From the NCBI GenBank assembly GCA_964019415.1, contig OZ025875.1:3368911-3432910 (forward strand): DNA of 64,000 bases, read 5' to 3'. Below the pieces are notes generated by a model. The model had not been told where the DNA came from. It did not search any database and was given only the letters and a program-made list of their open reading frames with translations. Positions within the stretch are counted from its first letter, which is position 1. Every line of letters begins with the position of its first letter. The DNA is from Ianthella basta (lineage: Eukaryota; Porifera; Demospongiae; Verongiida; Ianthellidae). Below are positions 1 through 58,987 of this stretch, in pieces. The position numbers and the translations under genes were made by a program.

Positions 1-3000
1 ATGTGTCTACTGGCAATGTACCATTCATGCTGCGAGGCAATCCTTATGCGCTTAGCGTATGCCTAGTATGCCTAGTACTGTAAGTACGATAGTTCATTCG
101 TAGTCAACAAGGTAGCAACACATACTTACCAGTGCAGTTCCTTCCGTCTCCAGTGTATCCGTCATTGCAGGTACATGTGTATGACCCAAGTGTGTTGGTA
201 CATGTGGCATCTGAGTCACAAGGAGACTGCTGCTCACACTCATCAATATCTGTAGGATGTAAAAACATCTAACTGCAATACTACGACACATTCCATACAA
301 AAGTATACTCGTAATCAGACTATTATTAACCCTTTTGGCACGAATGACGAGTTTACTCATCATAAATTTGTATACACGGAAGTGCAAATGACGAGTAAAC
401 TCGTCATAAAAATTGGCACAGCTTAAGAGCTGCTTTTTTTTGCTACAAACCTTCAGCTGACTGCTTTTCTCAGAGGACCTACAGCAGTGGTTGGATCTTA
501 CCAGGTTTGCTTTTCCTGTCTCCTTGTAGCGCCCGACACCTGCAATCAACTGTTAAAGTTTGCACGTATTTACTCACTTTCTCCCTTATCCAATCTGTAC
601 TAGTCCATGGAACAGAGGCAATTTGAACAAGAGTCTATAGACTCTCGTTCAATCTGCTATCATGGTAGAGGGAAATAAGTAAGCTCTAAGCTTTACAGCA
701 TGCAGAAACTCGGCGTTCTCGTCGTCTTCCTCTATTTTTGTGTTCTTCGTCCATACGCGCTTGCATACGTACGTTCTTAAACGGGCAAACGAGAAACCCT
801 CGGTATTCTCGGAGACAGCATCAAACTATCCTCACATCATCTTCACCTTTCTGGCAGTGACAACGCCACGAAGTGCACACACATGGCTCAAATCATTTAG
901 CCTCGTGTGCCACCATTTTAACTCGGCGTACTGAGTGCATGGCATGAAGTTTAAAAATTGAGCTTATAGGGTTAATAATTAGCATGTTTAAGGGAACTGC
1001 ATATTACTTATACCATAGTGCTGAGGTATATATGGATTTTAGACACACTTGCCTTTGGGCCTAGTGCGACTAACATCCTTATACACCCAAGCGCCATGGT
1101 ATGAGTGATGTATATTCTGTTGCCGGGGCTTCATATTACCATTTAGGCTGGATCATGGCAAGTCTAATAAATTCAGGATGGCTCAGGTAGCATCTGGCTG
1201 CTTCTGTTCGTGTGCTAACAATGTTACAGGTTGTTCTTTCCCAGACTACATGCTGCCAATTGTGCAAAATGCAAAGATAGATAATTAATTGTTCAGCCCA
1301 GAAACAGAAAGAATGTCTAGTGAAGTCTTACTCTAGAGAATACTAATAGAAAGCAGCACCACACCGACAAGGACGCCCAGCAGTCCCGCTGCATGGACGA
1401 TGATTGCGAGCCCCTCTGCTATTTGAGAGTAAGGAACAAGAATGATCTACGCTTCAATTTCCGTCTTAAGCACGCAAGTCTTAAGAAGGAAGTCTTGCAC
1501 AAGAAACCTAGAGGAGAGGTGTCCTGACAATTTCCCATGGTCGACTGCCAATTGTTTTGTGTATGTGGCTATTAGTTCACACCTTCCATTATGACTGTGA
1601 TAATAACAACAGTTAAGGAGCCATTTCAAGTACATAGATTCTTGTAGGCCGGGTGGGCAGAGCATAAAGGAAATGTTTACAGACATTCTCAGGTTGTTTG
1701 TCCACACTGGGCACCGGGTACTGGAGTCGAAATCATGGTACTATACATAAACATACTGCTGCATAAAATCTCAATGATCGCAATCTCAATCATCCTAGAA
1801 ATGTCGGGAAAGTCTCATTGCCCAGGCAGTAGATTGGTTAACTCATGGCTCCTTCGGCATTACCAGATATAACCTTGGTGGTCAATCTATTATAACACTC
1901 TCGGGCCTTCATCCTTAGGGTGTTATATACATAATTGACCACCGCGGTTATATCCAGTAATGCCTCAGGAGCCATGGGTTAACCTATACCTTAATTGATG
2001 CTATACCATGGAAGAGGCTTCTTATAGTAGATATACACACTTACGTACCAGTGCAGTTCATTCCATCTCCAGTGTACCCTTCATTGCAGGTACATGTGTA
2101 TGACCCAGGTGTGTTGGTGCACATGGCATTCTGATCACAAGGAGGCTGCTGTAGACACTCATCAACATCTACAAGAGTAATGAGTATGTGTGTGAAACAT
2201 ACAGTGCAGCACTTACTGCATACCTGGTATACTACATACAGACGCTCTGAGAGCTGATGCGTTCACTCAATACACAGTACAAACGTACATTTCAATTTTT
2301 CATTACTCTGCTTCAGTTTCAAGCAATAACAGTCAGCATTAGTCAGGCCTTGGAGAAAGTTGCTATGCTTGAGCAAACCTCTACAGATGTCCTTTGAAAT
2401 TCAGTTTCAAAATGTCACAAGGCTAGTTTCTTTGCGAATACAATATCTTAACTTTCCCAGTCCTTTGTTGAAAACATTAGAATACATTCACTATCATCAG
2501 TTTCATCTGACTAATGATGGATATTAATATCTGGGCAAGTTTCCATGAGTACTCTTGTCAGTTTCTGTGTGCTGTGTTACCAAGAGGTACTTCGTATTCA
2601 GAGCTTGCCTGATTTACCCGTGAAAACACTCACTAAAGTAATTACTTCAACACAGTTCCTTCTGACTCGTTACCATGAAGTCAACTAGTCTTGTTAAAAA
2701 CACTTACAGAGCCATAGCAGCTGGCCTAGGAGAAGCAGGATCCGCAAATTCTCAGTGTTTGAAACAGGCAATGACAATCACTATGTTTGTTACTCTCATA
2801 CTGAAACAAAGAAAACAAATGATAAGCAGCACTAATGCAGGTAAATGCACTTACCAGTGCAGTTTGCTCCATCTCCAGTGTATCCTTCATTGCAGGTACA
2901 TGTGTATGACCCAGGTGTGTTGGTGCACAGAGCATTGTCATCACAAGGAAGCTGTGTAGCACATTCATCCACATCTATACGATTATGTATATGATAGGTG

Positions 3001-6000: not shown

Positions 6001-9000
6001 GCGGGCCGAGATGCCATTTTTAATTATTGGTTTCCAGGACTTCCAGTTACGGAAGATCTTATTTGTTGTCAGCAAACATTCGAATTAAACTCTACCGTTG
6101 TCATAGCAGCCAGCCTCCGTTGCTACCTGTGCAGATAGTTCAAAACTGTAGTGTACTAGGGGGACACTACGTATTAAATGGGTTGTGTACTAGGGGGACA
6201 CTACACATTAAATGGGTAATGTACTAGGGGGACACTACACATTAAATGGGTAATGTACTAGAGGAACACTACGCATTAAATGGGTAGTGTACTAGTACAT
6301 TAAAATGTAACATGTATGGAGTGCTAGTTTATCTATACGAAGCCAACAGGGAAGTACCTACCAGTGCAGTTCATTCCATCTCCACTGTATCCTTCATTGC
6401 AGGTACATGTGTATGACCCAAGTGTGTTGGTGCATGTGGCATTCTGGTGGCAAGGAGACTGTGTAGCACATTCATCAACATCTGCAGAAATCAGTAAGTT
6501 TCTGTACACAGTCTGCAGTATACTGTAACTATCATGTGTCAAAGTGAACATAGGATCACGCACATTAAATAGTTTGTGCGTGCATGCATGTGTGTGCGTG
6601 TGTGTGCATGTGTGTGTGTGCGCGCATGCATCAATAGTCTCTCTGTTCTCTTTGCTAATTCACCAGGAAGCCAAGAAAGATATCACCAAATTGTCAGGGA
6701 TTAGGTCAAACTACATGGTAAACACCGTAAGGCAGGCCACATGGAATGGTTAGTGCACTATAACCATTCCAACTAACAATGCCTTCACACCATATACCTA
6801 ACAGCTTTGGAGTAAAGAAGATAAAACTACCATAAAGCCACAAAAAGAATTGACATAATTTACAGGAGCTAAGACATACATAATAGTGTATAACAATTCC
6901 TTCAAAATTAAAAGGGATTTAGGAATGGCTGGCAGAAAAAGCATAGAAACAAGCAAGAGTAACTCAACACCCTGATAAACCACATTTCTGTGAAGTTCGT
7001 CTGCATTCCTAATTTCCTTGTAGCTACATGGGACTATATAACTGCTGGTCATTTGGGTACATGCAGCTACAAAGAAATTAGGAATGCACAGCGAACTTCA
7101 CAGAAATGTGGTTTATCAGGGTGTTGAGATACTCTTGCTAGTTTCACCGAAGCGTGCTAATACATTAAGATAGAGTAGCCATTTTTATTGGGTACATTCC
7201 TAAATAGACGTCACGAGCGTGACGTCTGATAAGCGCTAATTGATAGCACAAAGGCAAACATGTTGAGATTCAACTCACCTGGTGTGGTGTCACAGACCAC
7301 TCCTGCATCTTCACTGTGAACACAGTTATGAATGCCAATACCATTATGCGAGCAGTTGCCCAGGTGTGTCTCACTTCCAGTGCACTGCACATCGTCGTAG
7401 TGAATTGGACCAGTGCCTTGACCATAGGTAGCTCGTACAGGTGCTGATGTGGCTCCAATATAACCAAGTTGACGGCACACTACACTTGCATCAGTAATGT
7501 CCCAAAAGTCATCACACACAGTGCCCCATTCGCCATTGTGGTAGACTTCTACACGACCTTCATTGTCAGCGCCACCTCTAACCAATCGGATATCACCCTC
7601 TGTTGCATCAGATAAAAAAGTGAATGTGGAAATCCTGAATAGTAAGCCTAATGAACACCCTTATCTTAATGCTGAACCTACTTGATACATCACAAAAACA
7701 CTGTTCAAGATTAAGAAATCAGCTCAGCTTACCTGCTGGAACCCTACACACTACTCCTGCATCTTCACCGTGAAAACAATTATGAATTCCGATACCAGAA
7801 TGTGGGCAGTCAGCCAGTCGTGTCTCACTCCCAGTGCAAGCTACATCGTCATAGTGGATTGGACCAGTGCCTTGACCAAAGAAAGCTAGTCGAGGTGCAG
7901 ATGTGGCTCCAGTGTAACCAAGCTGTCGGCACACCACATTGGCATCATTGATGTCCCAGCTGTCATCACACACAGTGCCCCATTGTCCATTGTGCAAAAC
8001 CTCCACACGGCCCTCGTTTGCAGTGGCACCTCCCACCAATCGAATGGCACCTTCATTCCCCACTGCATGAGAATCACAAAACAGTGTGACATTACAGTAT
8101 CATTGTGTAGCTGAAGCAGTCAGCATGAACCTGATGACCACAAGGTCTGCATAAGTAGGAGGAGCTGTGTCATGAGATCTTCCAGTGTGTGCACGACTCA
8201 ATCCACAGCCCAGGTATCTAACAATGGTGGTGACCTATATGTCACCTGCATTATTACTGTGCATTGCCACTGCCTCAAACAAGATGGCGACATAGCACAA
8301 ACTACTAGATGTACATACTACTCCAGCCATATTACAACACAGATACAAGAAAAAGCTAGACTTGATTAAAGAAGCGAGGGTACTTTAAAGATGCTTCTGG
8401 TTCAATAGCAATAGCTAATGTATTCTACATTACAAACATGCCATAGTGGTGATCTTGGCAACACATTCGTCTTTGGGGGATTATACTAACCCAACAGAAT
8501 GATGATTAGCATTGGAGTTTAACTAAGCAGTATACATTTTGTCTGCTTCAGACTAAGCTGGACAATTTATAAGCACTAGGCCATTTTCAAGTAGCAGATA
8601 AATCACTGCAGTGATTGGCTATGTAGAGAGGCTGGCAATCTGTTTCAGCAGACTGATGATGCTTAAGTGGTAGAAGACGGTTCCAATATGTATTCAATTA
8701 CCAGACACCATGTATGTACAAAACCATGCATGGGATAGACACTGAAGATGACTTTGGTTAAGCGTATTAGTGACAAAAGCTTCCACTGCACATGCCAGTG
8801 AACACATGACTTAAAAATGAACAGTGACTTACATTCATAATTATGCTTGTACTTACCAGTGCAGTTCATTCCATCTCCACTGTATCCTTCATTGCAGGTA
8901 CATGTGTATGACCCAAGTGTGTTGGTACATGTGGCATTGTGGTGGCACGGAGACTGTGTAGCACATTCATCAACATCTGCAGAAATCAGTAAGTTTCTGT

Positions 9001-12000
9001 ACACAGTCTGCAGTATATATACTACATATCATGTGTCGAAGTGAACATCACGCACATTAAATAGTTCGTGTGTGCATGTGTGTCTGTGCATGTGTGTACG
9101 TGTGTGTGTGTGTGCGCGCGTTCGCATGTGCATCAATGGTATCTGTTCCCTTTGCTAATTCACCAGGAAGCCAAGAAAGATATCACCAAACTGTCAGGGA
9201 TTAGGTCAAACTATGTGGTAAACACCGTAAGGCAGGCCAAATGGAATGGTTAGTGCACTATCCATTCAAACTAACAAACCATCACACCACATACCTAAGA
9301 GCTTTGGAGTAAAGAAAAGATAAAACTACCATGAAGCCACAAAAAGAACTGACATAATGTGCAGGAGCTAAGACATACATAATAAATGCCAATTGATAAC
9401 ACAAAGGCAAACATGTTGAGATTCAACTCACCTGGTGTGGTGTCGCAGACCACTCCTGCATCTTCACTGTGAGCACAGTTATGAATTCCAATGCCATTAT
9501 GGGAGCAGTTAACCAAGTGCGTTTCACTCCCAGTGCAGGCCACATTGTCATAGTGGATTGGACCAGTGCCTTGACCAAAGAAGGCTACTCCAGGGGCTGA
9601 TGTAGCTCCAACATAACCAAGTTGACGGCACACGACATTGGCATCAGTAATGTCCCAAAGGTCATCACACACAGTGCCCCATTGGCCATTGTGGTAGACT
9701 TCTACACGACCTTCATTGTCACTGCCACCTCCAACCAATCGGATATCACCCTCTGTTGCATCAGATAAAAAAGTGAAAAGTGAATATTCTGAATCGTAAG
9801 TCTAATGAACACCCTTATCTTAATGCTGAACCTACTTGATACATCACAAAAACACTGTTCCAGATTAAGAAAGTCAGCTCAGCTTACCTGTCTGAACCAT
9901 ACACACTACTCCTGCATCTTCACCGTGAAAACAATTATGAATTCCAATACCAGAATGCGGGCAGTCAGCCAGACGTGATTCACTCCCAGTGCAAGCTACA
10001 TCGTCATAGTGGATTGGACCAGTGCCTTGACCAAAGAAAGCTAGTCGAGGTGCAGATGTGGCTTCACTGTAATTGAGCTGACGACACACCACATTGGCAT
10101 CAGTAATGTCCCAACCGTCATCACACACCGTGCCCCACTGTCCGTTGTGAAAGACTTCGACACGACCCTCATTGGCAGTGGCACCTCCCACCAATCGAAT
10201 ATCACCTTCGCCCTCCGCTGTATGTGAAAAACAAAACAGTGAGTACAGACATAGTATGGCATGGTGCTTCTTCAGTCAATTCAGCCCCTGTATTTCATAG
10301 CCTCGACGGGACACGGAACAAATCCAAAACAGGAGGGCACAAACAAGATGAAAACTATGTTCGGTTGTGACAAACATAATCCGTACCAATAGTGATGACC
10401 TCAAAATCAGAACCACTGCTCTAGCACAACTCACCTGGTGTGGTGTCACAGACCACTCCTGCATCTTCACTGTGAGCACAGTTGTGAATTCCAATGCCAT
10501 TATGGGAGCAGTTGGCCAAGTGTGTCTCACTCCCAGTGCAGGCTACATTGTCATAGTGGATTGGACCAGTGCCTTGACCGTAGGTAGCTCGAACAGGTGC
10601 AGATGTGGCTCCAGTGTAACCAAGTTGACGGCACACCACGTTGGCATCAGTAATGTCCCAGCTGTCATCACACACTGTTCCCCATTCACCATTGTGGTAG
10701 ACTTCTACACGCCCCTCATTGTCGGTGGCACCTCCAACCAAGCGGACATCACCTTCTGCAACATCAGATGAACAAGTGAGAATGTAAGGTAAACCAGGGT
10801 AATTCTGTCAATACTTATTTGGAGTTGGGGAAATTCTTCCTGGTCAGTCTACAATTACATATTGAGAAGGAGTGCACTCAGCCCCACATAGTGTTCAACA
10901 GTGCACTACGTAAATGGGCTCTGTACTATTGGTAATGTGGTGTGTTAAAAGTGAGTCATGACTGCCGCCAAGGCAGTATCCTAGTGACAGAATTGCCCTA
11001 GGTTACTTTAGCGATTGCTACATAACCAGTCTAGTAGAAACACAAACATTTATACACAAAATTATACAGTATCTATGTATGAAGTGAGGGCTTCTCAGCT
11101 GGCTCAGGCATCAGAAAGGGTTGGTTCTCTAATACCAGCTTCACAACAGGGTTGAAAAGCTTGCCGACGTTTCGACCAGATGCTCTGGTCTTCTTCAGGG
11201 TGAAGAACATCTTCTGAAGGAGCATCTGGTCGAAACGTCGGCAAGGTTTTCAACCCTGTTGTGAAGCTGGTATTAGAGAACCAACCCTTTCTGAGTATCT
11301 ATGTACCAAGAGCATTCTGCTTGGATGTAACAATACATACAGTATACAACCTACATACTGTACTGTAAGCAGGGAAGCATGCCATGAGAGGTTCCGTCAT
11401 GCAGGTGATTAATTAACCACAAACCAGGATTCCTTGCACAGAACCCACTGCATAACAATGCAGACTCAAAACTTTAATAAGAACATGACTGGATATGCAC
11501 AGGCTTACAGTATACCATATTGCATGTATTTTAAGTTAATTGAGAGCTTTAGCATAGCGTAGCAATGTTACGGTATCCCAAGGATACCATGCATATTGTA
11601 CTGTTATCACGATGTCTTCAGCTCATGGCATAGGGAAATTTGGTAAAACAGTAGTAGTGAAAAGATGGCAGCGATCTAACTCACATAATGACTGATTACT
11701 AGCATAAGCAGGAAGACGACGAGCAGGAATAAGACGTCGCAATCGAGTACACGAAGCAGCTAGACTGGTAGTGACGTGCACCGCAGCAGGTGACACTATA
11801 CAGGCAAGTCTATTTGTGTCCGACAAATTCGTGTAGGAGGAGAATATCGTCAGCAATGCTAAAACGTACAGGTGAATCTGTGTGTATCCTCATAACAAGA
11901 GAGCCAGCCATATAAGCCAGAGGAACCTCGTCAGCAGAAGAAGCAGGAGACATGGTCGAGGTCACACTTGTGCTGACAGAGCTGGATACTTGCTTACTGG

Positions 12001-30811: not shown

Positions 30812-30888
<77 letters not shown>

Positions 30889-34919: not shown

Positions 34920-34942
34920 TACAATACTAGGGAAAGGTCTAT

Positions 34943-36958: not shown

Positions 36959-36978
36959 TACAATACTAGGGAAAGGTC

Positions 36979-38156: not shown

Positions 38157-38520
38157 CACACACCACTCCTGCATCTTCACCATGAACACAGTTATGACTT
38201 CCAATACCATTATGAGAGCAGTCAGCCAGACGTGTCTCACTCCCAGTGCAAGCTACATCGTCATAGTGGATTGGGCCAGTGCCTTGACCAAAGAAGGCTT
38301 GTCCAGGTGCTGATGTGGCTCCACTGTAACCAAGCTGTCGGCACACCACGGTGGCATCATTGATGTCCCAAAGATCATCACACACAGTGCCCCATTGTCC
38401 ATTGTGGTAGACTTCCACACGCCCCTCATTTGCTGTGGTACCTCCCACTAGGCGAACAGAACCCTCAGCTGCATGGGTGGCAAACAGAAGTGTATAAAGC
38501 TATGTGGTCGAGAGATCCAT
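38157..38520 (-). CDS. SRCR exon with a leader interrupted by a stop
   Basis: The leader region matches the first exon at 58987 ([13 protein letters not shown] retained), but the TGG codon at position 7 is TAG here, giving MDLSTT and a stop. The SRCR itself is intact: [14 protein letters not shown], loop [19 protein letters not shown]. With the acceptor at GCCACCCATGCAG it is a clean 312-nt phase 1-1 exon, 38157-38468. It can therefore serve as an internal exon but not, as it stands, as a first exon using that ATG. Confidence 0.78.
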
Positions 38521-38540
38521 TGGAATACACAACGACTATG

Positions 38541-41100: not shown

Positions 41101-41104
41101 TATA

Positions 41105-41973: not shown

Positions 41974-42093
41974 AAGTGCAGTTCATTCCATCTCCACTGT
42001 ATCCTTCATTACAGGTACATGTGTATGACCCAGGTGTGTTGGTACACAGAGCATTCGCATCACAAGGAGACTGTGAAGCGCATTCATCAACAT
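41974..42093 (-). CDS. cbEGF exon, last of the 42-59 kb gene
   Basis: 120 nt; [17 protein letters not shown]. The final exon base is T rather than the usual G before GTAAGT, which would change the codon spanning the next junction. Confidence 0.86.
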
Positions 42094-45000: not shown

Positions 45001-48000
45001 CTTGGAGATTTACCCCCAGGTCACCAAGTGCTAGAACATTGACTCACCAGCATGCTTAGAAACGCTAGGTGAGCTCTATTTGGAATTACTAATCAGTCCA
45101 TTGGTTCAGAGCATACACTTAGTAATAAGGCATTTTAATTCAATTAGATTAAAATGGTTGAGCTAATGAGCCATGATACACACACTCTACACTAAAAGAT
45201 AGAAATTTAAAGACATTAAAACAATAAAGAAATTAAAAACACTATTCTGTGTAGTTCAACTGACCTGGTGTGGTGTCACACACTACTCCTGCATCTTCGC
45301 TGTGGGCGCAATTATGAATTCCAATGCCATTATTGGGGCAGTCAGCCAGGCGTGTCTCACTCCCAGTACAGGCCACATTGTCATAGTGGATTGGACCAGT
45401 GCCTTGGCCATAGGTAGCAACTCCAGGTGCAGATGTGGCTCTGGTGTAACCAAGCTGTCGGCACACCACGTTGGCATCAGTAATGTCCCAACCGTCATCA
45501 CACACAGTGCCCCATTCGCCATTGTGGTAGACTTCTACACGCCCTTCATTTGCAGTTGTACCTCCCACCAATCGGACTGCACCTTCACCCTCTGTTGCAA
45601 GAGATTAACAACAGTAGTGAGATTGTAGGTTTCTCTGTCAGCATGACAATCCATCACAACAAGAAAAGAATTAAAGCTCCAACATTTATGTAATTCTACA
45701 AATGAGAGCTTGCATAAGGGGAAACATGTGCAAGATATTTTAATTAGTACGCACTTCTCATCATCAATCTGCAACTGTTACATCCTGGCAAACACAATAG
45801 CTATTTAGTATCAATTATGAACCTTTCAGTTTGACAATCCACACATTCTGTCAGAAGGAATGTCTACAAACATGGCATAAAGTAATGTCAGGCTAAAAGT
45901 CAAGAGGGCACTACACCTTGATCCACCCTGCAAAACTACTCTTCGGAATTTGACACTACATGTAAGGTACATTCTAATGCTATAGCTAACAGTCTGTTCC
46001 ACATACAATAGGCATATGTCTTGCACTGTGAGTGCTCTAAAAGATGGCAGAGAATTGCCATAATATATGTTTTAACCTTGTAGGATTAAACCTTCGCAGT
46101 TTTGCAAATCAGCAGCCATCCGTGAAGGTTTCATCCCGCAAAACTTACACAAGGCTCTAGCTAGCCAGACTGAGTCCTTGCAACCATGACAGTAAAAATG
46201 TGAAAATCGTCAAATTGCAAATAGTGAAAGTTTAATCCTGCCATAGTTAATGTGTACACAGTAAGCTGTTGTACATACTAAAGCTGTCATAGGTAATGGC
46301 TGAGTTGCATAAACCTCTTGAGTAACTGTAAAGGTGCAAATCACTGATACAGAACACAGCATACCTCAAATACATACAAATGAACCACACAAACTGAAAC
46401 TAAGTAAACTTACCCTGTGTACTAGTGGCACACACCACTCCTGCATCTTCACTGTGAGCACAGTTATGAACTCCAATACCATTATGTGGGCAGTCAGCCA
46501 GTCGTGTCTCACTCCCAGTGCAGGCCACATCGTCATAGTGGATTGGATCAGTGCCTTGACCAAAGAAAGCTCGTTGAGGTGCAGATGTGGCTCCAGTGTA
46601 GCCAAGCTGACGGCACACCACATTGGCATCAGTAATGTCCCAACCGTCATCACACACAGTGCCCCATTGTCCATTGTGATAGACTTCCACACGTCCCTCA
46701 TTTGCACCAGTACCTCCCACCAATCGAACATTACCTTCACCCTCTGTTGTAGGAGGGAAGCAACAGCAGTGAAAATGTAGGATTCTTTGTCAGCATGACA
46801 ACCTACTACAATAGCAAAGATAGGCATTAAAGTTTTCAACATGTATGTGACTCTACAATGGACAACTTCCATAAGCAAGAGAAAACATGTGCAGGAAGTT
46901 TCCAGCAGTACTTCTCATGATACAATCCACAACACTTTACATCCCGAAAACAAGATAGCATATTCGATAAACACGTCATGATTACCGTATACGTACTCAA
47001 ACCTTTGTCCCTGTACTCAATACATTACAGTTGACCTCAAATTGAGGACTAGGAGATGCACACGCTCTACTGCAATTCCTCATTGTAGCCTTTAATGCGC
47101 CATCATGGGTTGTCTGCAGCCATGCTTGGTAGCTACCTCCCATTTACAGCAGAAGGTGTTCTATACTTGTTGCCATGCTCTTGGCATCAGACAATTTTTG
47201 CTGATTGTGGTTACTTCTCTAGTTTTTGCATCAACAGGAGAAATGGCAAGAGAGTGCACAATTTTCTTCAAGAGATTAGCTGATATCCCAGCCAAGAAGA
47301 AGATCTGCTTCTTCAAGGTGATGTTCTAGATCTGCTGCAAAATCTTATGTTTGCAAAAGCAGCTACTTAAATTCCTGTGAGCAATGGCTAATTTTCTCTC
47401 CTACTCCAACAATTCACCTGAACTCTAAATATTTGTTGCCCTGGGCCATTTTGTCCATTATCCAATCCTCATGACTGACGAAGCATTTGCTGCCCAAAAT
47501 GTATAAAAATTTAGAGCACAAACAATAAAGGTATCCCAGGCAAAGGCCAAGAGGGGATTACACCTTGATTCACACAAAGCATACTCTTTGAGATACATTA
47601 CATGTATGATATGTATATAATGCTATACTAACACCAGCCAACACTCCGACACACATATCATGACCATTTGTCTTGCACTATGAGTATTCTGAAAGTTGGC
47701 AGAGAAGCTACACCAAAGCTGTTGTACACGCTAAAAACTGTCGTGCATGTATAACTGAGTTACATAAACCACTTGAGTAACTGTAAAGGTGATGAACAAA
47801 TCATTGGTACCGAACACAGCACATATCAGACACATACAAAGGAACCATGCAAACTGAAACCTGTTGAACATACCCTGTGTAGTAGTGTCACACACTACTC
47901 CTGCATCTTCGCTGTGAGCACAATTATGAATTCCAATACCATTATTGGGGCAGTCAGCCAGGCGTGTCTCACTCCCAGTGCAGGCCACATTGTCATAGTG

Positions 48001-51000
48001 GATTGGACCAGTGCCTTGACCGTAGGTAGCAACTCCAGGTGCAGATGTGGCTCCACTGTAACCAAGCTGTCGGCACACCACGTTGGCATCAGTAATGTCC
48101 CAAAGGTCATCACACACAGTGCCCCATTCACCATTGTGGTAGACTTCAACACGCCCCTCGTTTGCACTGCTACCTCCTACCAATCGAACATTACCTTCAC
48201 CTTGTATGGGAGAAACAACAGCAGTTGGACTAAAATCCCTGTCGACATGACAATCCAATATAAAAGTGAAGCAGGACGTTGTATACGTACATAGCTTAAA
48301 CATGTATGTACAGTGGAACCTGCATGACTTGCAGTCACTTCTGGAAAGTGGCTGCCTCAATTGTGAATACACCATTAAAGTCCCAATGATTGGTCTTATT
48401 CTATAGCAATAAAGATTCCACTCGAACTGCAGACACACCATTATCCCTAGTAACTGGCACACTGGCCTATTAACAACGGTATGTATCCCTCATTGATCAC
48501 TGCATGGGAATCTTACAGGCCTATATACGTAGGCTCAAAAGAACATGCCTTCTCAAGTTCGCCATCAGTATGTGAGAAATGTTGTAGTACAATTTATCGG
48601 ATTACTTTGAAACAAGGCACCAGCTGCAGTACTCAACTACAATGTTGTGTTGTGCCTCCTACAACTGTAGCTATAATGCATGGAATGTTCTGCAGCTGAA
48701 TGGCAGGAGCTATGCATGTACTCAACATTAACAGCATGCACTGATCATGATAGACCAGCTGTATGCATGTGTGTGTGTGTGTTTGTGTGTGATCATGCTG
48801 TACACACTACGTAGTATAGGTCTGCTCACAAGTAAGCGTGGCCAAAGCGCTTACTGCGCCTCACGTCACTGGCTTGATGACACAGTCCATCTAGTGCCAT
48901 ATGGCTGGTTCAACTTAAAGACAATGATGGTATTGAAAGCACCAGTTGGGTGTCACACACACGCATATACACACTACTCACCAAGCGTGTGTGCAACAGC
49001 AATAATCAGAGTAGCCCTAGGTGGCGTGGGCCATTAATTAGTAATAGATCCTGTTGCCATGGTAATGGGCCTCTAAACGATGGTTCTAAATCTCTGAGAA
49101 GCATTCCAACTGCTTCGCACGGGGGTTTATAAATCCCATATAACCATCTGCGGGAACTCCGCAGAGGCATTTATCATCGTAATGACGTCATTCATGCGTA
49201 CGCCATCAAGAAGTGAGAGGAAGGCAAAGTGATTGGGTAAGCGAACAGATTTGAATCTATATGACTTAAATGGCGACCAATCGATGTCTCAACGCGATTT
49301 AGACCACTCAGCACTCGGGCACTTCACACCCTCGAGCTTCGTGCTCTAAATCGCGCAGACACCTCTTGGTCACCACTTAACTATTACATAAATTGCAATT
49401 ATTGTGACTGTCTGATGCATGGTATCTAAGGGGTGCATGTAGCTAGCTGGTGTGCGAGTAACTCACTATACACAATGTTAGTGTATGGCCATAAACAAAC
49501 AGTGGGAAATGAGGTAAGCTTTACAACAGCAGTAAACAAAGAGAATAGCTAAAGAAGCAATATAGACACAGTGCTGCAGGCAATTGTTGTAAGCAGGTGT
49601 CCAGTCCAGCAGCAGAAGGAACCTTCTTCTTTAGCTTGCAAGGTAGCCCCACATAAGGGCAGCCAAGTGGGCTTTCCAGCACATTAGCTTACTTCACTCC
49701 CATATTATAAAGAGGGCTTTCAGCAGCCCCAAATGCAAAACAGCTATAATATCCACACTGCGAATCAAAACACCCATATGTGGACAGCTAGAGCAGCTCT
49801 CTCTCACTAGCAAATAACAGAACACTGCCATGCAAGTGTGGACACTAGTGAGTTCCAACCTAAGGAATGTAGAATGTCGCAGAGATTGCTTGCTACAAGG
49901 CATACATGCACAGCCGAAGCGTCCATGTTTGTCGCCACATGATTGCACTGTCCAAATCAGCAAAGGTAAAGTGCTCAAGGGCATTCCACCTTAGCTGACA
50001 TTGTAAACGAGCATTCGTTTAATTGATACTGTATATGAGGTATGTACGCTAGTTAACACTCAGTCCCACATAACATGATCACGTGTCTTGCTCTGCAGGT
50101 CAGCAGTGATATTACAACAAACTGATATACATAACAGGTGGTCATAAGTGATGCCTGAGTAAATTATTGCACTTGAGTATACATAATGAAAATTACCAAT
50201 ACCGAACACAGCACATATCAAATACATAAAAAGGAAACCACACCAACTTACTCTGTGTAGTAGTGTCACACACTACTCCTGCATCTTCACTGTGAGCACA
50301 ATTATGAATTCCAATGCCATTATTGGGGCAGTCAGCCAGACGTGTCTCACTCCCGGTGCAGGCCACATTGTCATAGTGGATTGGACCAGTGCCTTGACCG
50401 TAGGTAGCAACTCCAGGTGCAGATGTGGCTCCACTGTAACCAAGCTGTCGGCACACCACGTTGGCATCAGTAATGTCCCAAAGGTCATCACACACAGTGC
50501 CCCATTCGCCATTGTGGTAGACTTCCACACGCCCCTCACTTGCACTGCTACCTCCAACCAATCGAACATTACCTTCACCTTCTATTGTAGGATAGAAACA
50601 ACAACAGTGAGATTAGAATTCTCAGTCAACATGACAATCCACAGTAAGGCAAGACATTGCATTAAAGCCTCAATGTGTGTATACATAATTCTATAATGCA
50701 GAACCACCTGAATAAAGGATTACATACGGGCAAGAGGTTTCCAATATGGCTTAACTCCAAGTGCTTCTAATGATTCTATGCCCATATGCAGGGATTCAAA
50801 AGGGAGGTTAAATGTCTCAGCGAACATTTACATCCATCAATCCAAATGGAAGACGGTGTAAGAGGTCAGGTATACAGTAGGCATACTGGAATGTAGGGTG
50901 AAACTGGCAAACACAACAAGTTTATTCCTATCCACTGTTACATTAATAATGATGAACCAATCATTCACTTGCCATTCTATACATTAATCCAGAAGTAGTT

Positions 51001-54000
51001 ATATTCCACAATAACAAACATGATATAAAGGCATGTCAAGCAGAGTTCCAGAGGACTTTATATCTTATCGCTTTACACCTTGATCCACTCTGCAAAACTG
51101 CTCCTTGAATATTGATGCTATGTGTATTAATTACTACGGTACATACTAATGCTATAGACAACACTGACTCACAAATCATGATCATGTGCCTTGCACTATG
51201 AATATTCTGAAGAATGTCAGTGGCATTGCAACAAAAGTATATAATAGTACGTGCTAACAGGTTGTCATAAGCAGTGCCTGAGTTACATAAACCACTTGAG
51301 CAAAGGTGATGAACCAATCACCAATACAGAACACAGCATACCTCAAATACATACAAAGAAACCATGCAAACAAGTTGAACTTACCCTGTGTACTAGTGGC
51401 ACACACTACTCCTGCATCTTCACTGTGAGCACAGTTATGTACTCCAATACCAGAATGTGGGCAGTCAGCCAGTCGTGTCTCACTCCCAGTGCAAGCTACA
51501 TCGTCATAGTGGATTGGATCACTGCCTTGACCAAAGGAAGCTTGTCCAGGTGCAGATGTGGCTCCACTGTAGCCAAGCTGTCTGCACACCACGTTGGCGT
51601 CAGTAATGCCCCAGCCATCATCACACACAGTGCCCCATTGACCATTGTGGTAGACTTCCACACGTCCCTCATTTGCACCGGTACCTCCCACCAACCGGAC
51701 ATTACCTTCACCCTCTGTTGTAGGAGGCAGAACAACAACTGTGAGACTTTAGAAATCACATTACATCAGTAAGGACAGACATTGTGATGCCAATTGGAAT
51801 GCTATTGTACAATGCTGAACTTATATAGTGGCGGGAGGCCCTAGGGCGGATTCAGCCAAACCTTGATGGGACTCAGCTGAGCGTTTTTATTAGTTATTGC
51901 GCAGTCACCTCGGTTGAATGTATATAGCTAGCTATTTCAGTAAAGTACAGTGCATGAGCGTAACTCGACCAGGGCAAGTACATTTTGAGCAATCTGCTTT
52001 CACTGGCTGGCAGAAAGAAGGGATAGCAAGCCAGACGAAGCACTGGATGGCAGCAGACCCATCAACACCTACATATTTAAATCTGCGCAGGGAAGCAAGC
52101 CCCTACTTAACTAACGCATTTTGCACTTCACCCAAGGGAACAATGAAAGTGTTCCCGGCCACGCGGGCAAATGATGTCAGCCAATATGGCGGAATTGCCA
52201 ACAGGTGTGTAGCCCTCGCTGGAGCAATGAGCGAAGTTAAGAGCAATCTGAACGCAGCATGCAGCGATGAAGTGGAGTGTTGAGCAGATTCATGGCCAAT
52301 GGTGGCCAGGTAGAACATTTTGTTGTTGTGAGCACCTGCGGAGAACACCGGGCTATTGCACAATCTAGGTGTCTCGTGTTAACTGGGATGGATATACATA
52401 TATACATGCATATATGCAAACGGGGGACGACAACACATCACGATTACTTGCCTCGCCTTTCGGCTCGGCAATTAAAATGGCTGCCGGCACCCAGAACTAA
52501 AAAGAACCTAATTTAGATCCCTTTGCAGCCATACCAGATTCTATTAAGTTTAAACCAGCTCCTATAAGGTTATTTAGGTGATTTAGGCCATTACATTCTG
52601 TTGGATGCTCACTTTAGTAAAATTTGCTAAGAAACATATTTCAGATCTGGGCCAAGGAGGGGGCTCAAGCCCCCAAAGCCCCCCCCTCTAGATCCGCCCC
52701 TACACACAAAAGCAAGAGGAACTATGTGCAGTCACACCTGGTACCTCACATTCACAGGAGGAGGTGTTCTACATCTGTTAACTCTGAACTGCCAGTCCCC
52801 CAACTCACAATTCTCATTGTGATACATAGCTGCATACCTCGTACAAATTCACTGACTATTGTATACCCAAATGGCTTTGTAGATGTGGTTGCCACAAACT
52901 GCTATTCTAAACATTCATCACCCTTGGCCGTCTTACCCATTATGCCTCTTGTCACTAGGAAGGATGAATGATGAAACGTTTACAGCCCAAAGTGCATGTA
53001 CAACAAGGCCTCATGGAGACCATACCCCGTGCGTGTGGAGACTGTGTAGACCTAGCTATATATTATTATTATTATGCCTCTATCCGTATATGGACGGGCT
53101 GTCTCTGCAAACTCTTTGCGCATAATTATGGCTGCTGGCCGTCTAGTCTGGCTTGCTAGACCATCCCGTAAGCGCCCAGAGGTGCGAAAGGGGAGGGACC
53201 GGCTGCAAAACAATAGAAAGTGCCGTTTTAATAGCTTTTGCGTGGTTGTTGCAGTCGTTGATCGTATGCAGGCTGTTTTTTTAGCGAAACCTATTCTTCA
53301 GGAGCTACACCTTGGAAGTGCCTTAATCGTGCAAACGGCCCAAAAGTGCGGACGGACAAACTGAGCCACAAACCAAACGCATAACCTCTATTGCATGATT
53401 GCGCACGGGCTAAAAACTAGAGTACATAAAATGAAAGGCATAATCGAGAGATCAAGAGTGCATTACACCTTGATCCACACTGCAACAACTACTCCTTGAA
53501 TACTGACACTCTTCCACACACCATAAGCATATGTCTTGCACTATGAGTATTCTGAAATATGGCAGTGTGAAGCTACACCAAGGCTGTTGTACAGACTAGA
53601 AACTGTCATAAGTAATGGCTGAGTTGCACAACCTATCGAGCAAAGGTGCAATGGTCAAAATCACTGAAATAGAACACAGAATATCTCCTATTTCTACAAG
53701 GGCATTGTGCAAAATGAAAGGAGTTGAGCTTACCCTGTGTGCTAGTGGCACACACCACTCCTGCATCTTCACTGTGAGCACAGTTGTGACTTCCAATACC
53801 ATTATGGGAGCAGTCAGCCAGACGTGATTCACTCCCAGTGCAAGCTACATCGTCATAGTGGATTGGATCACTGCCTTGACCAAAGAAAGCTTGTCCAGGT
53901 GCAGATGTGGCTCCACTGTAGCCAAGTTGTCGGCACACCACATTGGCATCAGTAATGTCCCAACCATCATCACACACAGTGCCCCATTGACCATTGTGGT

Positions 54001-57000
54001 AGACTTCCACACGTCCCTCATTTGCACCAGTACCTCCCACCAACCGGACATTACCTTCACCCTCTGTTGTAGGAAGCAGAACAACAACAGTGAGACTTTA
54101 GAAATCACATTACATCAGTAAGAACAGACATTGTGTTGCCAATTGGAATGCTATTGTACAATGCAGAATTTATACAGTGGCGGGGGGCCCTAGGGCGGAT
54201 CCAGCCAAACCTTGATAAAAATTGCGCAATCACATTATGACGTAATTAAAATGGCTGCCGGCGCCCAGAACTAAAAAGAACCTAATTTAGATCCCTGTGC
54301 AGCCATACCAGACTCTATTAAGCTTAAACCAGCTCCTATAAGAAAATTTAGATGATTTAGGCCATTACATTCTGTTGTATGTACACTTGTGAAGTTTGCA
54401 TTTGCATCATGTTCACTTGAGTGAAAAATATATATTTCAGACCTGGGCCAAGGAGGGGGGCTCAAGCCCCCAAGCCCCCCCCCCCCCCCCCCCTTCTCCT
54501 CTGGATCCGTCCCTACACACAAGCAAGAGTAACTATGTGCAGTCACACCTGGTACCTCACATTCACAGGAGGAGGTGTTCTATATCTGTTAACTCTGAAC
54601 TGCCAGTCCCCCAACTCACAATTCTCATTGTGATACATAGCTGCATACCTCGTACAAATTCACTGTCTATTGTATACCCAAATGGCTTTGTAGATGTGGT
54701 TGCCACAAACTGCTATTCTAAACATTCGTCACCCTTGGCCGTCTTACCCATTATGCCTCTCATCACGAGGAAGGATGAATGATGAAACGTTTACAGCCCA
54801 AAGTGCATGTACAAAAACTAGAGTACATAAAATGAAAGGCATAACCAAGAAGTCAAGAATGCATTACACCTTGATCCACACTGCAAACACTACTCCTTGA
54901 ATACTGACACTCTATGTAAGGTACATACTAATGATATATAGACAACACTCTGTTCCACACACCGTAAGCATATGTCTTGCACTATGAGTATTCTGAAATA
55001 TGGCAGTGTGAAGCTACACCAAAGTTGTTGTACAGACTAGAAAATGTCATAAGTAATGGCTGAGCCAGGCCCAGAGGAAGCACTTTAAAAGTGGTCAGGC
55101 CAAGTCAGAACAATGTTACCTAGACAGCAACTTGCACAGGCCAGGAAGTACCTTAGCTATAGAAAAGCATGGCCAGACCTAAAAATCTGGTCAGGTCATG
55201 GCCTGGGCAGCCTGGGCGGTTCCGCCGGGCATGTCAGTTGCATAACCTTTCCAGCAAAAGTGTGATGGTCAAAATCACTGAAAAAGAACACAGCATATCT
55301 CCAATTTCTACAAGGGCACTGCGCAAAATGAAAGGAGTTGAGCTTACCCTGTGTGCTAGTGTCACACACTACTCCTGCATCTTCACTGTGAGCACAATTG
55401 TGAATTCCAATGCCATTATGGGGGCAGTCAGCCAGGCGTGTCTCACTCCCAGTGCAAGCTACATTGTCATAGTGGATTGGACCAGTGCCTTGACCGTAGG
55501 TAGCAACTCCAGGTGCAGATGTGGCTCCACTGTAACCAAGCTGTCGGCACACCACGTTAGCATCATTGATGTCCCAAAGATCATCACACACAGTGCCCCA
55601 TTCACTGTTGTGGTAGACTTCCACACGCCCCTCACTGGCAGTAGAACCTCCCACCAATCGGATGTCACCTTCAGTCACTGTTCATGAGAGAAGCAAACAG
55701 CAGTGAAAATGTGGAATGTCTTTCTGCATAGCACAAAACATCCTAAGGTAGGTGGTTAGCATACAGCAGCTCTGCTGTAGCCACAATGTTCCTTATGGTA
55801 CAACTAAACCTTCCTTTTATATCTATTCAACTGTCAACAATGTACTAAAAGCACGCTGTACGTAAGTGATGCACTGTTAAAAATAGGGAGTGATGATTAC
55901 ACCCATAATTGGTGTGAATTTGTTGCCACTGTGAGCACACGTATTTGCAGTGTGATGTTCACTCCAACCATGCAGTACACAACATACCATTTATGTGAAC
56001 AGCTTGTATGAGACTAAGCACTTCGTGGTACGTTTCACTACAGATATAGTACACAGCATACCACCTGGTGGGATTGCTAGTGGGTGACACAAAGTACCTA
56101 ATGGTACGTAAAATTTGCACACTTAGTTTGACGAGGTCCTCCCACTGTACACAACATACCATCAGGCTAAGCTGTATCCTGGGTAGCTATAATTATATGT
56201 ACTTAGATAGCTCGTAAGATTCTAAGTAAACTCTCATCTTTGTGTGTAAATTACTTCAAAGTCTCTTAATCTATCAGAAATGATGTGATCAACAGTGTGG
56301 GCACCGGTGTCAGTGTGAACGTCAAACTAAAGTAATAGTGTGACTGATCACACCCTTGCATGGTGTGAGCACTGAGTGGTGTGACGGTCATGCCATATTT
56401 TTAACAGTGTGTAATTCCAAGTCATGTGCATAAATTTCAACCAAACTGCATCACAACCCCTCATTACAGTGATACACAATGGTACACTTCTGCCTGCATG
56501 CAGTATACATACGTACGGTAGCTAGCTGGACATGAATATATCTGAATGTCTGATCATATATGCAGGCACAAAGATGATCGATAGTGATGTGGCATAACTT
56601 CATGGTCATACAGCATTTCATATCACTAGTCTACCCCTTGTAATTTGCCTTGAATAAATATTCCAGGGCAAGAATATTCATAGTCTCGTAGAGACCACTA
56701 TTCCTCTATTGTGCAACAGCATGGAGAAAACGGAGGCCTGAGGCAGGAGAGGGGGCCTGGCTCGACACTAGAATAATTACTGAGGATTAGAAAGCACATA
56801 GGTATTACTAGGTACACTGCTGAGATAGTATTATAGCATCTTGCACTCTTACTCCATCATTCTTGGTGCACCAGCTGATTCGCACAAACTGACAATGGTC
56901 CAACTACACCACAAACCACATCTGCTGTATTGTGGGAATTGTCTGCATTTCTCTCCCAATAGCTGCTCCACCCTAATGTCACAGCTGGCTTTCATATGTA

Positions 57001-58987
57001 TACCTCGCATTCTATACTAGACTTCATCTTACATCCAACCTACCTCACTACACCCCATCCTGCACACCTCACACTGGGCTAGCCACCCACCCACCCTAGG
57101 CAATCTTACTCACCCTACATTCCACTCACCTCAAGCTGCCCTCACACCCATATCCCACATGATTCCACAGAACTCGAAAGGACAATGTTATGGACCAAAT
57201 AACTCAAGATCTCAACATCTTCCAATACTATACTGAAAGGACCTTATATACATTCAGGCTAGGACAATTCTAGAATAGCATACACAAATCATCCAATGTC
57301 ACTCTGATGTTGCCATGCTTCCTATCACAACCATTGTTCTGCTGAACATGTAACAACCGTTACACACACACACACACTGGTCTTCACACACCCCACTCTT
57401 TCCTCGCGCTGTGACCTTCACCATATCCCCGCACAACCCTCATAACCTCATACACACTATTCTTCACCAGTATCGCTTCACCTTCACACAGTTTGCATGC
57501 ACCACTCGGTACAACTCTATCCATCACAGCTCTCAACTACTCAACCATCTATCAGTGATGCAGGGGTATTGAAGGATCGAACAGTACAAAGAGAAGCTGT
57601 ATTCATTTGCTAAACATGTACTTCACAGCATGCAGTGCAAGGGGACGCAAGGCCAACCTGCTCTGATCACTGCATATTATACCAATGTGTGTAGTAACTG
57701 TAAATTAGTAAAGTGAAATCATCGAATTTTGGATCCACGAAATACACTGTGTGTCAACCCCATGAAAACCCCATTCATCATCATGCATCATATACAATGT
57801 GCATTGGGCAATCAGGACTAGAAATCATGAAATATCTGTGAGTTGGGGGAGTAAACGCTTGCATACATTATCAGACAGCACAGTAGTGCTGTCTATGTAG
57901 GGATAGCAGTGTGTACTAGTAATCGCATTAATGGCTCTTTGTGCTATAGTGGCATGTATTAACTTGTTAACCTGCTGAACTCTCTCCCCTGAGTCCATTC
58001 CATAGGCTGCTGGACTCCCACTTGTACATACAACATGGACCAGATCATGTATACATCAGAAATAGCACTAGCATGCAGTAGCAACAAGAACAGTGGCTCT
58101 CTGCCCTCCCCTTCCCCTTGTCTTGTGAATAACTCTCTCTAAACTAGAGAGGGAGCTTCTCAGTTGGCTTCTCTTCATACCAACTTCAATGAACAAATTG
58201 AGATTTCAACATTTTGGCCAACTGCTCTGGCCTTCTTCAGGGCGAAGAAGGAAGAAACTAATACAGGCACTGTCAATTTATAGGCACGCATACAATTAAA
58301 TGGTGTCAGACCTCACTGGATGTTGCATGCTCAGCTCAGCTCAGTGCCGTGGCTTGTCTCATCCTGCCTCACTCTCTAAACTACAAATTTGCATGCCAGG
58401 GAGTGACTCATGCTGACCTCAGTGTGGGCTACACACATCAAGCTATGAATATCCTTAATTATACATAGTTGTGGCTTTGGGGATAGTTAGTTATCCTGGG
58501 ACAGTTATGACAGAACCAAACAAATGCTGGGCTAGGCTTTGGGCAGGCCTATAGGAGTTGGACAGTCGGGAGCCTAAAACATAAACTGAACAAGCTCAAC
58601 ATGCTCACCTAGTGTAGTGGTAGTACACACCACTCCTGCATCTTCAGCGTGAACACAGTTCTCAATCCCAATACCATTATGGGTGCAGTCAGCCAGGCGT
58701 GTCTCACTCCCAGTGCACTGCACATTGTCATAGTGGATGGGACCAGTGCCTTGACCAAAGAAAGCTCGTTGAGGTGCTGATGTGGCTCCACTGTAACCAA
58801 GTTGTCGGCACACCACAGTGGCATCATTGATGTCCCAAAGGTCATCACACACAGTGCCCCATTCACTGTTGTGGTACACTTCAACACGCCCCTCAGTTGC
58901 TGTGGTACCTCCCACTAGGCGAACAGAACCCTCAGCTGCATGGGTGGCAAATAAAAGTGTATAAAGCCATGTGATTGAGAGATACAT
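41974..58987 (-). CDS. SRCR(8)-EGF(6) gene with signal peptide
   Basis: Gene-level entry. Exons in order: signal peptide plus SRCR (58609-58987), SRCR at 55348, 53734, 51385, 50252, 47874, 46414 and 45265, then cbEGF at 44307, 43964, 43734, 43310, 42259 and 41974. The leader [20 protein letters not shown] has a hydrophobic core and small residues before the mature start. All junctions are phase 1. Most of its SRCR exons keep an EGEGNVRL or EGDIRL start. No stop-containing terminal exon was recognised below 41974, and the last EGF ends at a normal donor context (GTAAGT). The transcript therefore either has an unrecognised 3' exon in 38.5-41.9 kb or continues into the SRCR exons at 38.4, 36.8 and 34.8 kb, which have compatible phase-1 acceptors. 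Confidence 0.75.
42259..42378 (-). CDS. cbEGF exon
   Basis: 120 nt; donor [41 protein letters not shown]. Confidence 0.88.
42379..43309. other. Intron with C/T-rich segment
   Basis: 42530-42800 has a different composition, with inverted GGTGGCTCAGCATTG-type pieces and a 95-codon plus ORF. Probably repeat-derived; family not recognised. Confidence 0.45.
43310..43429 (-). CDS. cbEGF exon
   Basis: 120 nt; donor [43 protein letters not shown]. Confidence 0.88.
43734..43853 (-). CDS. cbEGF exon
   Basis: 120 nt; donor [34 protein letters not shown]. Confidence 0.88.
43964..44083 (-). CDS. cbEGF exon
   Basis: 120 nt; donor [39 protein letters not shown]. Confidence 0.88.
44307..44549 (-). CDS. 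cbEGF exon with a possible 41-residue N-terminal extension
   Basis: The core EGF is 44307-44426 ([17 protein letters not shown]). Upstream the frame stays open for exactly 123 nt to a good acceptor (CCCTATAACAG), adding [22 protein letters not shown] and LTTGPMC. Total 243 nt keeps phase 1-1. The added part resembles half an EGF module with three cysteines. Use of the nearer acceptor (ACTCATACAG) would give the plain 120-nt exon; both may be used. Confidence 0.6.
44550..46413. other. Introns around the SRCR exon at 45265
   Basis: 44550-45264 and 45592-46413, AT-rich, no additional coding module seen. Confidence 0.55.
45265..45591 (-). CDS. SRCR exon
   Basis: 327 nt; starts [18 protein letters not shown], loop GVATYG, ADCPNNG. 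Last SRCR before the EGF run. Confidence 0.88.
46414..46743 (-). CDS. SRCR exon
   Basis: 330 nt; [17 protein letters not shown], loop QRAFFG, then [10 protein letters not shown] with D for the usual G; IGVHNC. Confidence 0.88.
46744..47873. other. Intron, 1.1 kb
   Basis: Contains a 74-codon plus ORF at 47105-47329 with no recognisable family. Its right part (47510-47870) matches introns at 53430-53730 and 54830-55050, marking them as copies. Confidence 0.55.
47874..48200 (-). CDS. SRCR exon
   Basis: 327 nt with an acceptor shifted by 3 nt (ATACAAG) relative to its neighbours. [16 protein letters not shown], loop GVATYG, ADCPNNG; donor GTATGT. Confidence 0.86.
48201..50251. other. Intron, 2 kb
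   Basis: Holds the inverted MITE copy at 49041-49387 and a short TG run near 48770. No coding module. Confidence 0.6.
49041..49387. mobile_element. Inverted copy of the palindromic MITE
   Basis: Bounded by GTAATAG and CTATTAC. It contains the complements of the 34.9-kb element in reverse order (GGTTCTAAATCTCTGAGAAG, then CACCTCTTGGTCACC). Confidence 0.75.
50252..50581 (-). CDS. SRCR exon
   Basis: 330 nt; [17 protein letters not shown], loop GVATYG, ADCPNNG. The exon ends in A rather than G before GTAAGT. Confidence 0.87.
50582..51384. other. Intron, no further feature seen
   Basis: The left-hand gene-proximal part resembles the intron at 45600-46400; nothing coding. Confidence 0.55.
51385..51714 (-). 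CDS. SRCR exon
   Basis: 330 nt; DGWGIT in place of the otherwise constant WDIT or WDIN, loop [22 protein letters not shown]. Together with its intron it is a tandem copy of the exon at 53734. Confidence 0.87.
51826..52702. mobile_element. Probable hAT-like element, longer copy
   Basis: Starts TAGTGGCGGGAGGCCC, ends GATCCGCCCCTA, resembling the CAGTGGCGGATCC type of hAT ends. Holds about 590 bp (51873-52470) missing from the copy at 54175. That segment contains a 121-codon plus-strand ORF (51918-52283), not recognised. Confidence 0.45.
53734..54063 (-). CDS. SRCR exon
   Basis: 330 nt; loop [29 protein letters not shown], ends ATSTQG at GTAAGC. Confidence 0.87.
54175..54514. mobile_element. 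Probable hAT-like element, shorter copy
   Basis: Starts CAGTGGCGGGGGGCCC, ends CTGGATCCGTCCCTA. It sits in the same intron position of the tandem exon copy, so it was duplicated with it. Confidence 0.45.
54475..54493. repeat. Poly-C tract
   Basis: Run of C in an element-derived intron segment; the paralogous place at about 52675-52686 has a much shorter run, so its length is unstable. Confidence 0.85.
55064..55236. mobile_element. Short insertion, MITE- or SINE-like
   Basis: The paralogous intron at about 53620 runs GGCTGAGTTGCAC without interruption. Here about 170 bp lie between GGCTGAG and CAGTTGCATA, with GCC- and GGC-rich complementary ends (CAGGCCC, GGCCTGG). Confidence 0.55.
55348..55677 (-). 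CDS. SRCR exon
   Basis: 330 nt; starts [28 protein letters not shown], loop GVATYG. The 5' half resembles the leader exons at 34.5 and 36.6 kb, the 3' half the exons at 48 and 50 kb. Confidence 0.87.
55678..58608. other. Large first intron of the 42-59 kb gene
   Basis: 2.9 kb. 55880-56410 holds short similar segments (CACAACATACCAT, CACAGCATACCA) and a pair GTGTGAGCACTGAGTGGTGT; 56990-57540 is C-rich on the plus strand. A degraded foldback copy lies at 58146-58256. No exon recognised. Confidence 0.55.
58146..58256. mobile_element. Diverged relative of the foldback element
   Basis: GAGCTTCTCAGTTGGCTTCT, CAACTGCTCTGGCCTTCTTC and AGGGCGAAGAAGG resemble the foldback arm and loop. Only about half an element remains, in intron 1 of the 42-59 kb gene. 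Confidence 0.5.
58609..58987 (-). CDS. Signal peptide plus SRCR, first exon of the 42-59 kb gene
   Basis: ATG at 58987; [20 protein letters not shown] then [13 protein letters not shown]. Loop [21 protein letters not shown] has E where other exons have H before the seventh-type cysteine. Phase-1 donor GTGAGC. An in-leader acceptor (GCCACCCATGCAG) would give 58609-58935, also phase 1-1. Confidence 0.83.

Follow-up and report, generated by a model that had tools for sequence, protein, structure and literature searches.

A sponge SRCR/EGF exon array as the probable distal ectodomain of a giant adhesion GPCR, with modules apparently reshaped by in-exon recombination

Background

A 64,000-nucleotide stretch of sponge genomic DNA (C8:3368911-3432910, termed here the window; positions are counted from its first nucleotide, so that negative positions lie to its left and positions above 64000 to its right) carries a long succession of SRCR and cbEGF exons. 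This locus raises two questions: of what kind of protein do these exons form a part, and by what process were so many similar modules accumulated within an intact reading frame?

The reading proposed here, to which a probability of roughly 0.78 is assigned, is that a giant adhesion GPCR (termed A1) has its distal ectodomain encoded in the window, next to a second 5' block (termed A2), that both belong to a tandem cluster of paralogues, that their module arrays have been reshaped by recombination, and that they serve in recognition. A1 would then consist of a signal peptide, 26 SRCR modules, 21 cbEGF modules, about 8 fn3 and about 9 Ig domains, one more EGF, a GPS, a 7TM domain and a cytoplasmic tail; A2 would consist of a signal peptide, 8 SRCR and 6 cbEGF modules, a 7TM domain of its own not having been found.

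Results and discussion

Module census and exon phase

Domain models built from the window itself locate 34 SRCR and 23 cbEGF modules within positions 1-64000, all on the minus strand; the window contains no N. In a genome-wide Pfam search for which 150 candidates were scored, 29 of the 34 SRCR modules are above the Pfam cut-off among the matches listed. Two of the window's modules, when compared with PDB sequences, match CD163, CD5L and others, and one of the two also matches DMBT1.

Each SRCR module is encoded by a single exon and is exactly 100 residues long, 64 of which are invariant across the 34 modules; there is no indel, and six cysteines occur at fixed places in every module. SRCR domains of group A have six cysteines and are encoded by two exons, and those of group B have eight cysteines and are encoded by one; the modules of the window have the cysteine count of group A and the exon structure of group B. 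A phase-1 acceptor and a phase-1 donor are found at the expected place in all 34 SRCR exons and in all 23 EGF exons (27 of 27 EGF exons when the four just left of the window are included), as compared with about one exon in nine if phases were random. The original prediction of more than 30 SRCR and more than 20 cbEGF modules, each a single exon flanked by phase-1 introns, agrees with these counts.

Two start copies

These exons follow two copies of a signal-peptide exon (Table 1). The first belongs to A2, and its peptide, which was also recovered by tblastn, is identical to the one at the start of paralogue B (at 112098; see below). Within the original prediction's locus of 1 to 58987 the modules are indeed present, but the gene starts farther upstream, at the signal-peptide exon at 59968. 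The second copy, at 38932, belongs to A1 and lies within a duplicate of the A2 start region: positions 38540-39028 are 93% identical to 59573-60064, and 39032-39666 are 86% identical to 60980-61629. Along transcription, the copy at 59968 leads into 8 SRCR and 6 EGF exons (58924-41978), and the copy at 38932 into 26 SRCR and 17 EGF exons within the window (38457-134).

No match to fn3 or Ig, nor to the GPS or 7TM exons of its neighbours, is seen in A2 between its start and the A1 start copy. A2 may either end by itself or serve as a distal promoter that splices into A1. On another contig (C19:841056-843161) there is a paralogue with a 91% match to the A2 start region, including the first SRCR.

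Table 1. Positions of the main features, numbered from the first nucleotide of the window
Feature	Position	Strand	Remarks
Last 7TM exon and cytoplasmic tail of gene B	62312..63270	-	7tm_2 25.5 bits, cut-off 20.6
A2 signal-peptide exon	59887..59968	-	ATG at 59968, 27 residues, phase-1 donor
8 single-exon SRCR modules of A2	45278..58924	-	domain models, splice phases
6 single-exon cbEGF modules of A2	41978..44427	-	domain models, splice phases
A1 signal-peptide exon	38852..38932	-	89% identical to A2 copy
26 single-exon SRCR modules of A1	7292..38457	-	cbEGF exons interspersed
17 cbEGF exons of A1 in the window	134..30711	-	domain models, splice phases
Four further cbEGF exons of A1	-1965..-277	-	left of the window
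Unit U1, 4 SRCR and 1 EGF	9383..14485	-	tandem copy
Unit U2, 4 SRCR and 1 EGF	14486..19586	-	tandem copy
Unit U3, 4 SRCR and 1 EGF	19587..24687	-	tandem copy
Fusion SRCR exon, type D start, type E rest	24750..25049	-	max-chi-square p = 0.0002
Fusion SRCR exon, 5' type F, 3' type C	7746..8045	-	p = 0.0002 and 0.0008, two C parents

A putative adhesion GPCR end

Ninety kb on each side of the window were examined. The exons of A1 continue on the same strand past the left edge for about 20 kb, to about -20056, where the 7TM exons close with a stop; the locus, described beforehand as very large, is larger still, comprises two start copies and reaches well outside the window. Neither the 7TM end nor the two signal-peptide exons figured in the original prediction. 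Beyond the edge the order in A1 is cbEGF, fn3 and Ig (as matched by Pfam), GPS and 7TM. Some 260 bp separate the last cbEGF (-1965) and the first fn3 exon (-2515), which match in phase 1, and the stretch between them contains no copy of the signal peptide. Local models find 7 fn3 and 8 Ig domains; an exon model of the tail, which fits the fn3 and Ig exons but contains one stop and is unsure in its GAIN and GPS part, suggests about 8 and about 9.

The GPS exon of A1 (-16787..-16695, i.e., C8:3352123-3352215) scores 38.2 bits against PF01825 (cut-off 22.5) and reads CGCDHLTHFAIL, the H-L-T/S cleavage triplet being present as HLT. The first 7TM exon scores 47.8 bits against 7tm_2 (cut-off 20.6; E 1.5e-12) and the last 20.2 bits, just under the same cut-off; there is also a weak hormone-receptor-like ORF (Pfam, E 0.077). 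At the place expected for a GAIN domain, an ORF (-16162..-15488) without a Pfam match is conserved in the three neighbouring genes described below. Across 244 kb each gene has a single GPS and a single 7TM (allowing that the GPS of gene B would fall in a run of N), and neither occurs a second time between the SRCR/EGF exons of A1 and its 7TM. Among the Pfam matches of 20 ORFs (18 from the A1 tail and 2 from gene B), which are to fn3, Ig and 7tm_2, there is no CUB, ZP or sushi domain.

A1 is thus most likely a giant adhesion GPCR (class B2), of which the window would encode the distal ectodomain. Its SRCR and EGF exons encode 3,604 residues and the rough tail model about 2,800, so that the modelled receptor may be roughly 6,000-6,500 residues long. 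That the SRCR/EGF exons and the 7TM exons belong to one transcript is suggested by phase, by order and by recurrence of the arrangement in paralogues; and the presence of a 7TM end downstream speaks against a secreted A1 product.

Paralogues with different arrays

Three further genes of the same kind, termed B, C and Z, lie on the same strand; following transcription, B comes before A2. Gene B has 31 matches to fn3, 6 to Ig and 3 SRCR modules, one of which contains an in-frame stop; gene C, which is interrupted by N and by the edge of the examined stretch, has no fewer than 24 matches to fn3 and 6 to Ig; and gene Z has 5 matches to fn3 and 6 to Ig, besides 14 cbEGF modules and 14 EGF modules of another type. 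GPS and 7TM matches are found in Z and C, and B shows the last 7TM exon. The arrangement seen in A1 recurs as EGF-fn3-Ig-GPS-7TM in Z and as signal peptide-SRCR-fn3-Ig-7TM in B. Genes B and C constitute a tandem duplication with an offset of about 52 kb (60616-102586 versus 112890-154000); their similarity is about 98% in the pieces at 60.6-64.0 and 66.5-85.7 kb, and 94-96% in three others. From these sequences the cluster appears to follow one pattern, in which one kind of Ig/GPS/7TM end is preceded by different arrays.

Several observations concern these genes individually. Runs of N occupy 64001-66500, just right of the window, where (judging from C) they would hide the GPS of B, and 144001-149000, inside gene C. 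The in-frame stop in gene B is a TAG in its third SRCR exon (106791-107090), which could be skipped without a change of frame if its phases are 1-1. Within 74188-97344, gene B has 29 consecutive fn3 matches with tandem repeats of their own--that is, the same mode of growth applied to another module.

Could the SRCR/EGF exons instead belong to genes, secreted or otherwise anchored, that merely lie beside separate fn3/Ig/7TM adhesion GPCR genes? A2, whose SRCR and EGF exons show no GPS or 7TM match ahead of the A1 start copy, lends this some plausibility, and at least one SRCR/EGF block may indeed end without a 7TM. For A1, however, the closeness and matching phase of the last cbEGF and first fn3 exons argue otherwise, as does the distribution of the signal-peptide copies, which mark starts at 112098, 59968 and 38932 but not between cbEGF and fn3. 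The same order from EGF to fn3 is moreover seen in Z, and adhesion GPCRs with SRCR repeats are reported from Amphimedon in the cited part of PMC4302439. Unlinked genes are considered unlikely.

Tandem units

Within A1, about three units of 5.1 kb each (U1-U3) occur in tandem and are about 97-98% alike. Outside the SRCR and EGF domains they diverge by 1.08% (U1/U2), 2.09% (U1/U3) and 1.51% (U2/U3). When exons are grouped by their intron flanks, the types regularly follow one another along transcription as F, D, C, E, EGF.

Units this similar might be the product of assembly, two haplotypes or repeated contigs having been joined end to end; the overall difference between U2 and U3 amounts to only about 1.6%, which is near a possible allelic difference in a marine invertebrate. 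Against this, the units number three rather than two and the window is free of N; one 2.4-kb stretch is identical between U2 and U3 amid a remainder that differs; the array edges, at 9383 and 25087, are both within 62 bp of an SRCR domain; and older duplications, of about 88-93%, surround the units. An artefact is very unlikely. Three genome searches, with 40 candidates scored in each, gave no second copy of the array among those candidates. Two other SRCR-bearing contigs, C55 and C1, align over 10 kb each only in patches of 77-92%, which looks more like paralogy than like a second haplotype.

Between U1 and U2 exons are more diverged than introns: 61 of 1317 exon positions differ, versus 41 of 3784 intron positions (p = 3e-13), and the excess persists when exon 9445 is set aside (26 of 1017 exon positions; p = 8e-4). 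Between U2 and U3 exons are no more diverged than introns (p = 0.44). Over a broader set of pairs, exons are the more diverged in 44 of 62, though in a table that is biased by having kept only those pairs with intron flanks at least 85% alike. The dN/dS ratio of the SRCR exons is 0.22 (0.15-0.24 across identity bins). Positive selection was considered as a cause of the exon excess and rejected, inasmuch as SRCR pairs that are 90-99% identical have a dN/dS of only 0.15-0.17. Because low dN/dS is here combined with exons more diverged than introns, exchange between constrained module exons appears to be a better reading of the U1/U2 excess than either relaxed or positive selection.

Fusion exons

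Two SRCR exons are in-frame fusions of different types (Table 1). The exon at 24750 has a 5' flank of type D and a 3' flank of type E, with a breakpoint between nucleotides 36 and 69, and its unit contains two SRCR modules, as against four in each of U1-U3. For the exon at 7746 the breakpoint lies between nucleotides 137 and 241. A third exon, at 33976, likewise has discordant flanks, but its breakpoint is not significant (p = 0.57 and 0.41). Of three exons used as controls for the breakpoint test, two are not significant (p = 0.061 and 0.093) and one, 19649, is (p = 0.0002); the latter signal is read as its reference parent, exon 9445, being itself mosaic. Over the 34 SRCR exons, a recombination test is significant when all biallelic sites are used (p = 0.001) and is not when third positions alone are used (p = 0.13).

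A similar origin was considered for the single-EGF exons, as fusions of EGF pairs, and rejected: their flanks suggest it, but the exons do not (p = 0.34; one exon tested). All four single EGFs have 2-3 differences from one parent and 12-15 from the other.

These findings suggest a mechanism in which the arrays would have grown and shrunk through unequal crossing over and through exchange of sequence from one module exon to another. The stretch common to neighbouring modules would be provided by the SRCR exons, each of 300 bp, such that recombination would tend to fall inside exons; and because these exons are all phase 1-1 and free of indels, the recombinant products would stay in frame. The original prediction had described the array as suited to exon gain, loss and skipping, and this is borne out by the symmetric phases, while the 5.1-kb units, the fusion exons and the contents of the paralogues record past gain and loss.

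A more far-reaching version is that N-terminal arrays (SRCR/cbEGF, fn3-rich or EGF-rich) are interchangeable on a conserved Ig/GPS/7TM end, and that in-exon recombination rebuilds them so frequently that individuals differ in them. This is put forward only tentatively, as rather doubtful; if true, it would imply a GPCR repertoire of variable copy number by which microbes or other individuals are recognised, and a 7TM counterpart to secreted DMBT1. A related idea is that the module arrays differ between individuals and serve to discriminate self from non-self. The raw material for such individual-specific arrays would be furnished by copying, by fusion and by mosaic exons, but the dN/dS values indicate purifying selection on average, in contrast to the diversifying selection that is usual at known allorecognition loci; an allorecognition locus is very unlikely.

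Cation sites and possible functions

In the portion of PMC7043408 drawn upon here, the surface cation ligands of DMBT1 SRCR8 are given as D1019, D1020 and E1086 and as D1020, D1058, D1059 and N1081. Residues D1019, D1020, E1086, D1058, D1059 and N1081 fall on module positions 27, 28, 94, 66, 67 and 89, respectively, a placement based on residue spacing and on a 100-to-100 residue PDB match, the alignment itself not having been inspected. The positions that match D1019, D1020, D1058, N1081 and E1086 are invariant in all 34 modules, and position 67 (D1059) is D in 17 modules and N in the other 17. Position 31, which belongs to the buried cation site, is D in 33 of 34, the remaining module (51401) having G rather than aspartate. 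The motif GRVEVxxxxxW was set aside as evidence of ligand binding: although GRVEV occurs in all 34 modules, the motif is described in PMC7043408 as buried and as no ligand site.

Judged from these residues, each SRCR module looks able to bind ligand, and dozens of them in a row would favour high-avidity binding. Each SRCR module keeps the DMBT1-like cation residues, other positions vary, and the whole would act as a multivalent, cation-dependent recognition rod that relays engagement of a ligand (on a microbe, the matrix or another cell) to GPS/7TM signalling. By analogy with SRCR proteins of sponges and of human saliva, as they are described in the cited parts of PMC7308585, PMC6208332 and PMC5435793, microbe recognition would be the likeliest use. 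What argues for ligand recognition by the A1 and A2 modules is the conservation of their SRCR cation sites. We infer GPS autoproteolysis, this class of ligand and a present-day polymorphism in copy number.

The arrays might alternatively be passive tandem repeats in an adhesion GPCR with a structural or mechanosensing task, the number of modules drifting neutrally and recognition playing no part. Giant adhesion GPCRs like ADGRV1 are structural tethers, and both the low dN/dS and the 64 invariant SRCR sites are in keeping with such a role. The retention of surface cation ligands in every module, and the fact that paralogues differ in module type rather than in number alone, tell against it, though both are compatible with a structural role too. 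Such a passive role is possible but less than probable, and recognition is preferred.

Relation to known systems

The adhesion GPCR ADGRV1/VLGR1, whose ectodomain runs to thousands of residues, resembles A1 in ectodomain size, except that Calx-beta repeats stand in place of SRCR and EGF modules, and we know of no module exchange of such a kind within it. The sponge aggregation receptor combines SRCR with SCR/sushi domains and a single TM; it is, like A1, a multi-SRCR protein of an early animal, whereas here SRCR modules are combined with EGF, fn3, Ig and 7TM. In the cited part of PMC5435793 that receptor appears as an SRCR protein and is said to be polymorphic.

The closest precedents are two. 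Amphimedon queenslandica Aq712029 and Aq715659 are described, in the part of Krishnan et al. 2014 (PMC4302439) used here, as adhesion GPCRs with SRCR repeats. They share with A1 the multiple SRCR repeats on an adhesion GPCR, and are not described there as having what is found here, namely 26 (+8) SRCR and 21 (+6) cbEGF modules, fn3 and Ig domains, differing tandem arrays and in-exon breakpoints. Human DMBT1/SALSA, as portrayed in the cited parts of PMC4946147, PMC5435793 and PMC7043408, contains tandem SRCR exon units whose number varies between individuals. Tandem genomic units with SRCR exons (here U1-U3) and the same surface cation ligand residues are common to both; but DMBT1 is secreted and has SID, CUB and ZP domains, whereas for A1 the most likely product is a 7TM receptor that includes EGF, fn3 and Ig, and variation in copy number between individuals is a feature of DMBT1, whereas the present locus is known from one assembly.

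In-exon crossovers or swapping of module arrays in adhesion GPCRs were not found in the subset of PubMed Central searched. What would be new here is the joining of an Amphimedon-type SRCR adhesion GPCR with DMBT1-type SRCR units, along with fusion exons and differing arrays on tandem paralogues. The exact joints can be named: exons 24750 and 7746, and the units at 9383-25087. This would link SRCR copy-number variation of the DMBT1 type to adhesion GPCR signalling, and would delineate a sequence-level route for the diversification of invertebrate receptors, in which recombination within symmetric exons alters module number and sequence while leaving the frame intact.

Genome context

Across the genome there are at least 150 GPS matches, many of them on C8 at 1.76-3.49 Mb. 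Dozens, on both strands, lie within C8:1764691-3486875 and make up an adhesion-GPCR cluster of very large size. Among the matches listed, those to SRCR and to GPS are intermixed at 5.62-5.92 Mb on C6.

Repetitive elements are also present. To the left of the window, a 997-codon open frame on the plus strand (-34166..-31176), which by eye resembles the reverse transcriptase of a non-LTR retrotransposon, falls in the stretch that bears the second EGF type of gene Z. Two dispersed repeats of about 650-700 bp, at about 16640-17340 and at 326-975, each have around thirty copies elsewhere in the genome, of about 75-86% identity, among the matches listed; the former is carried within the 5.1-kb units.
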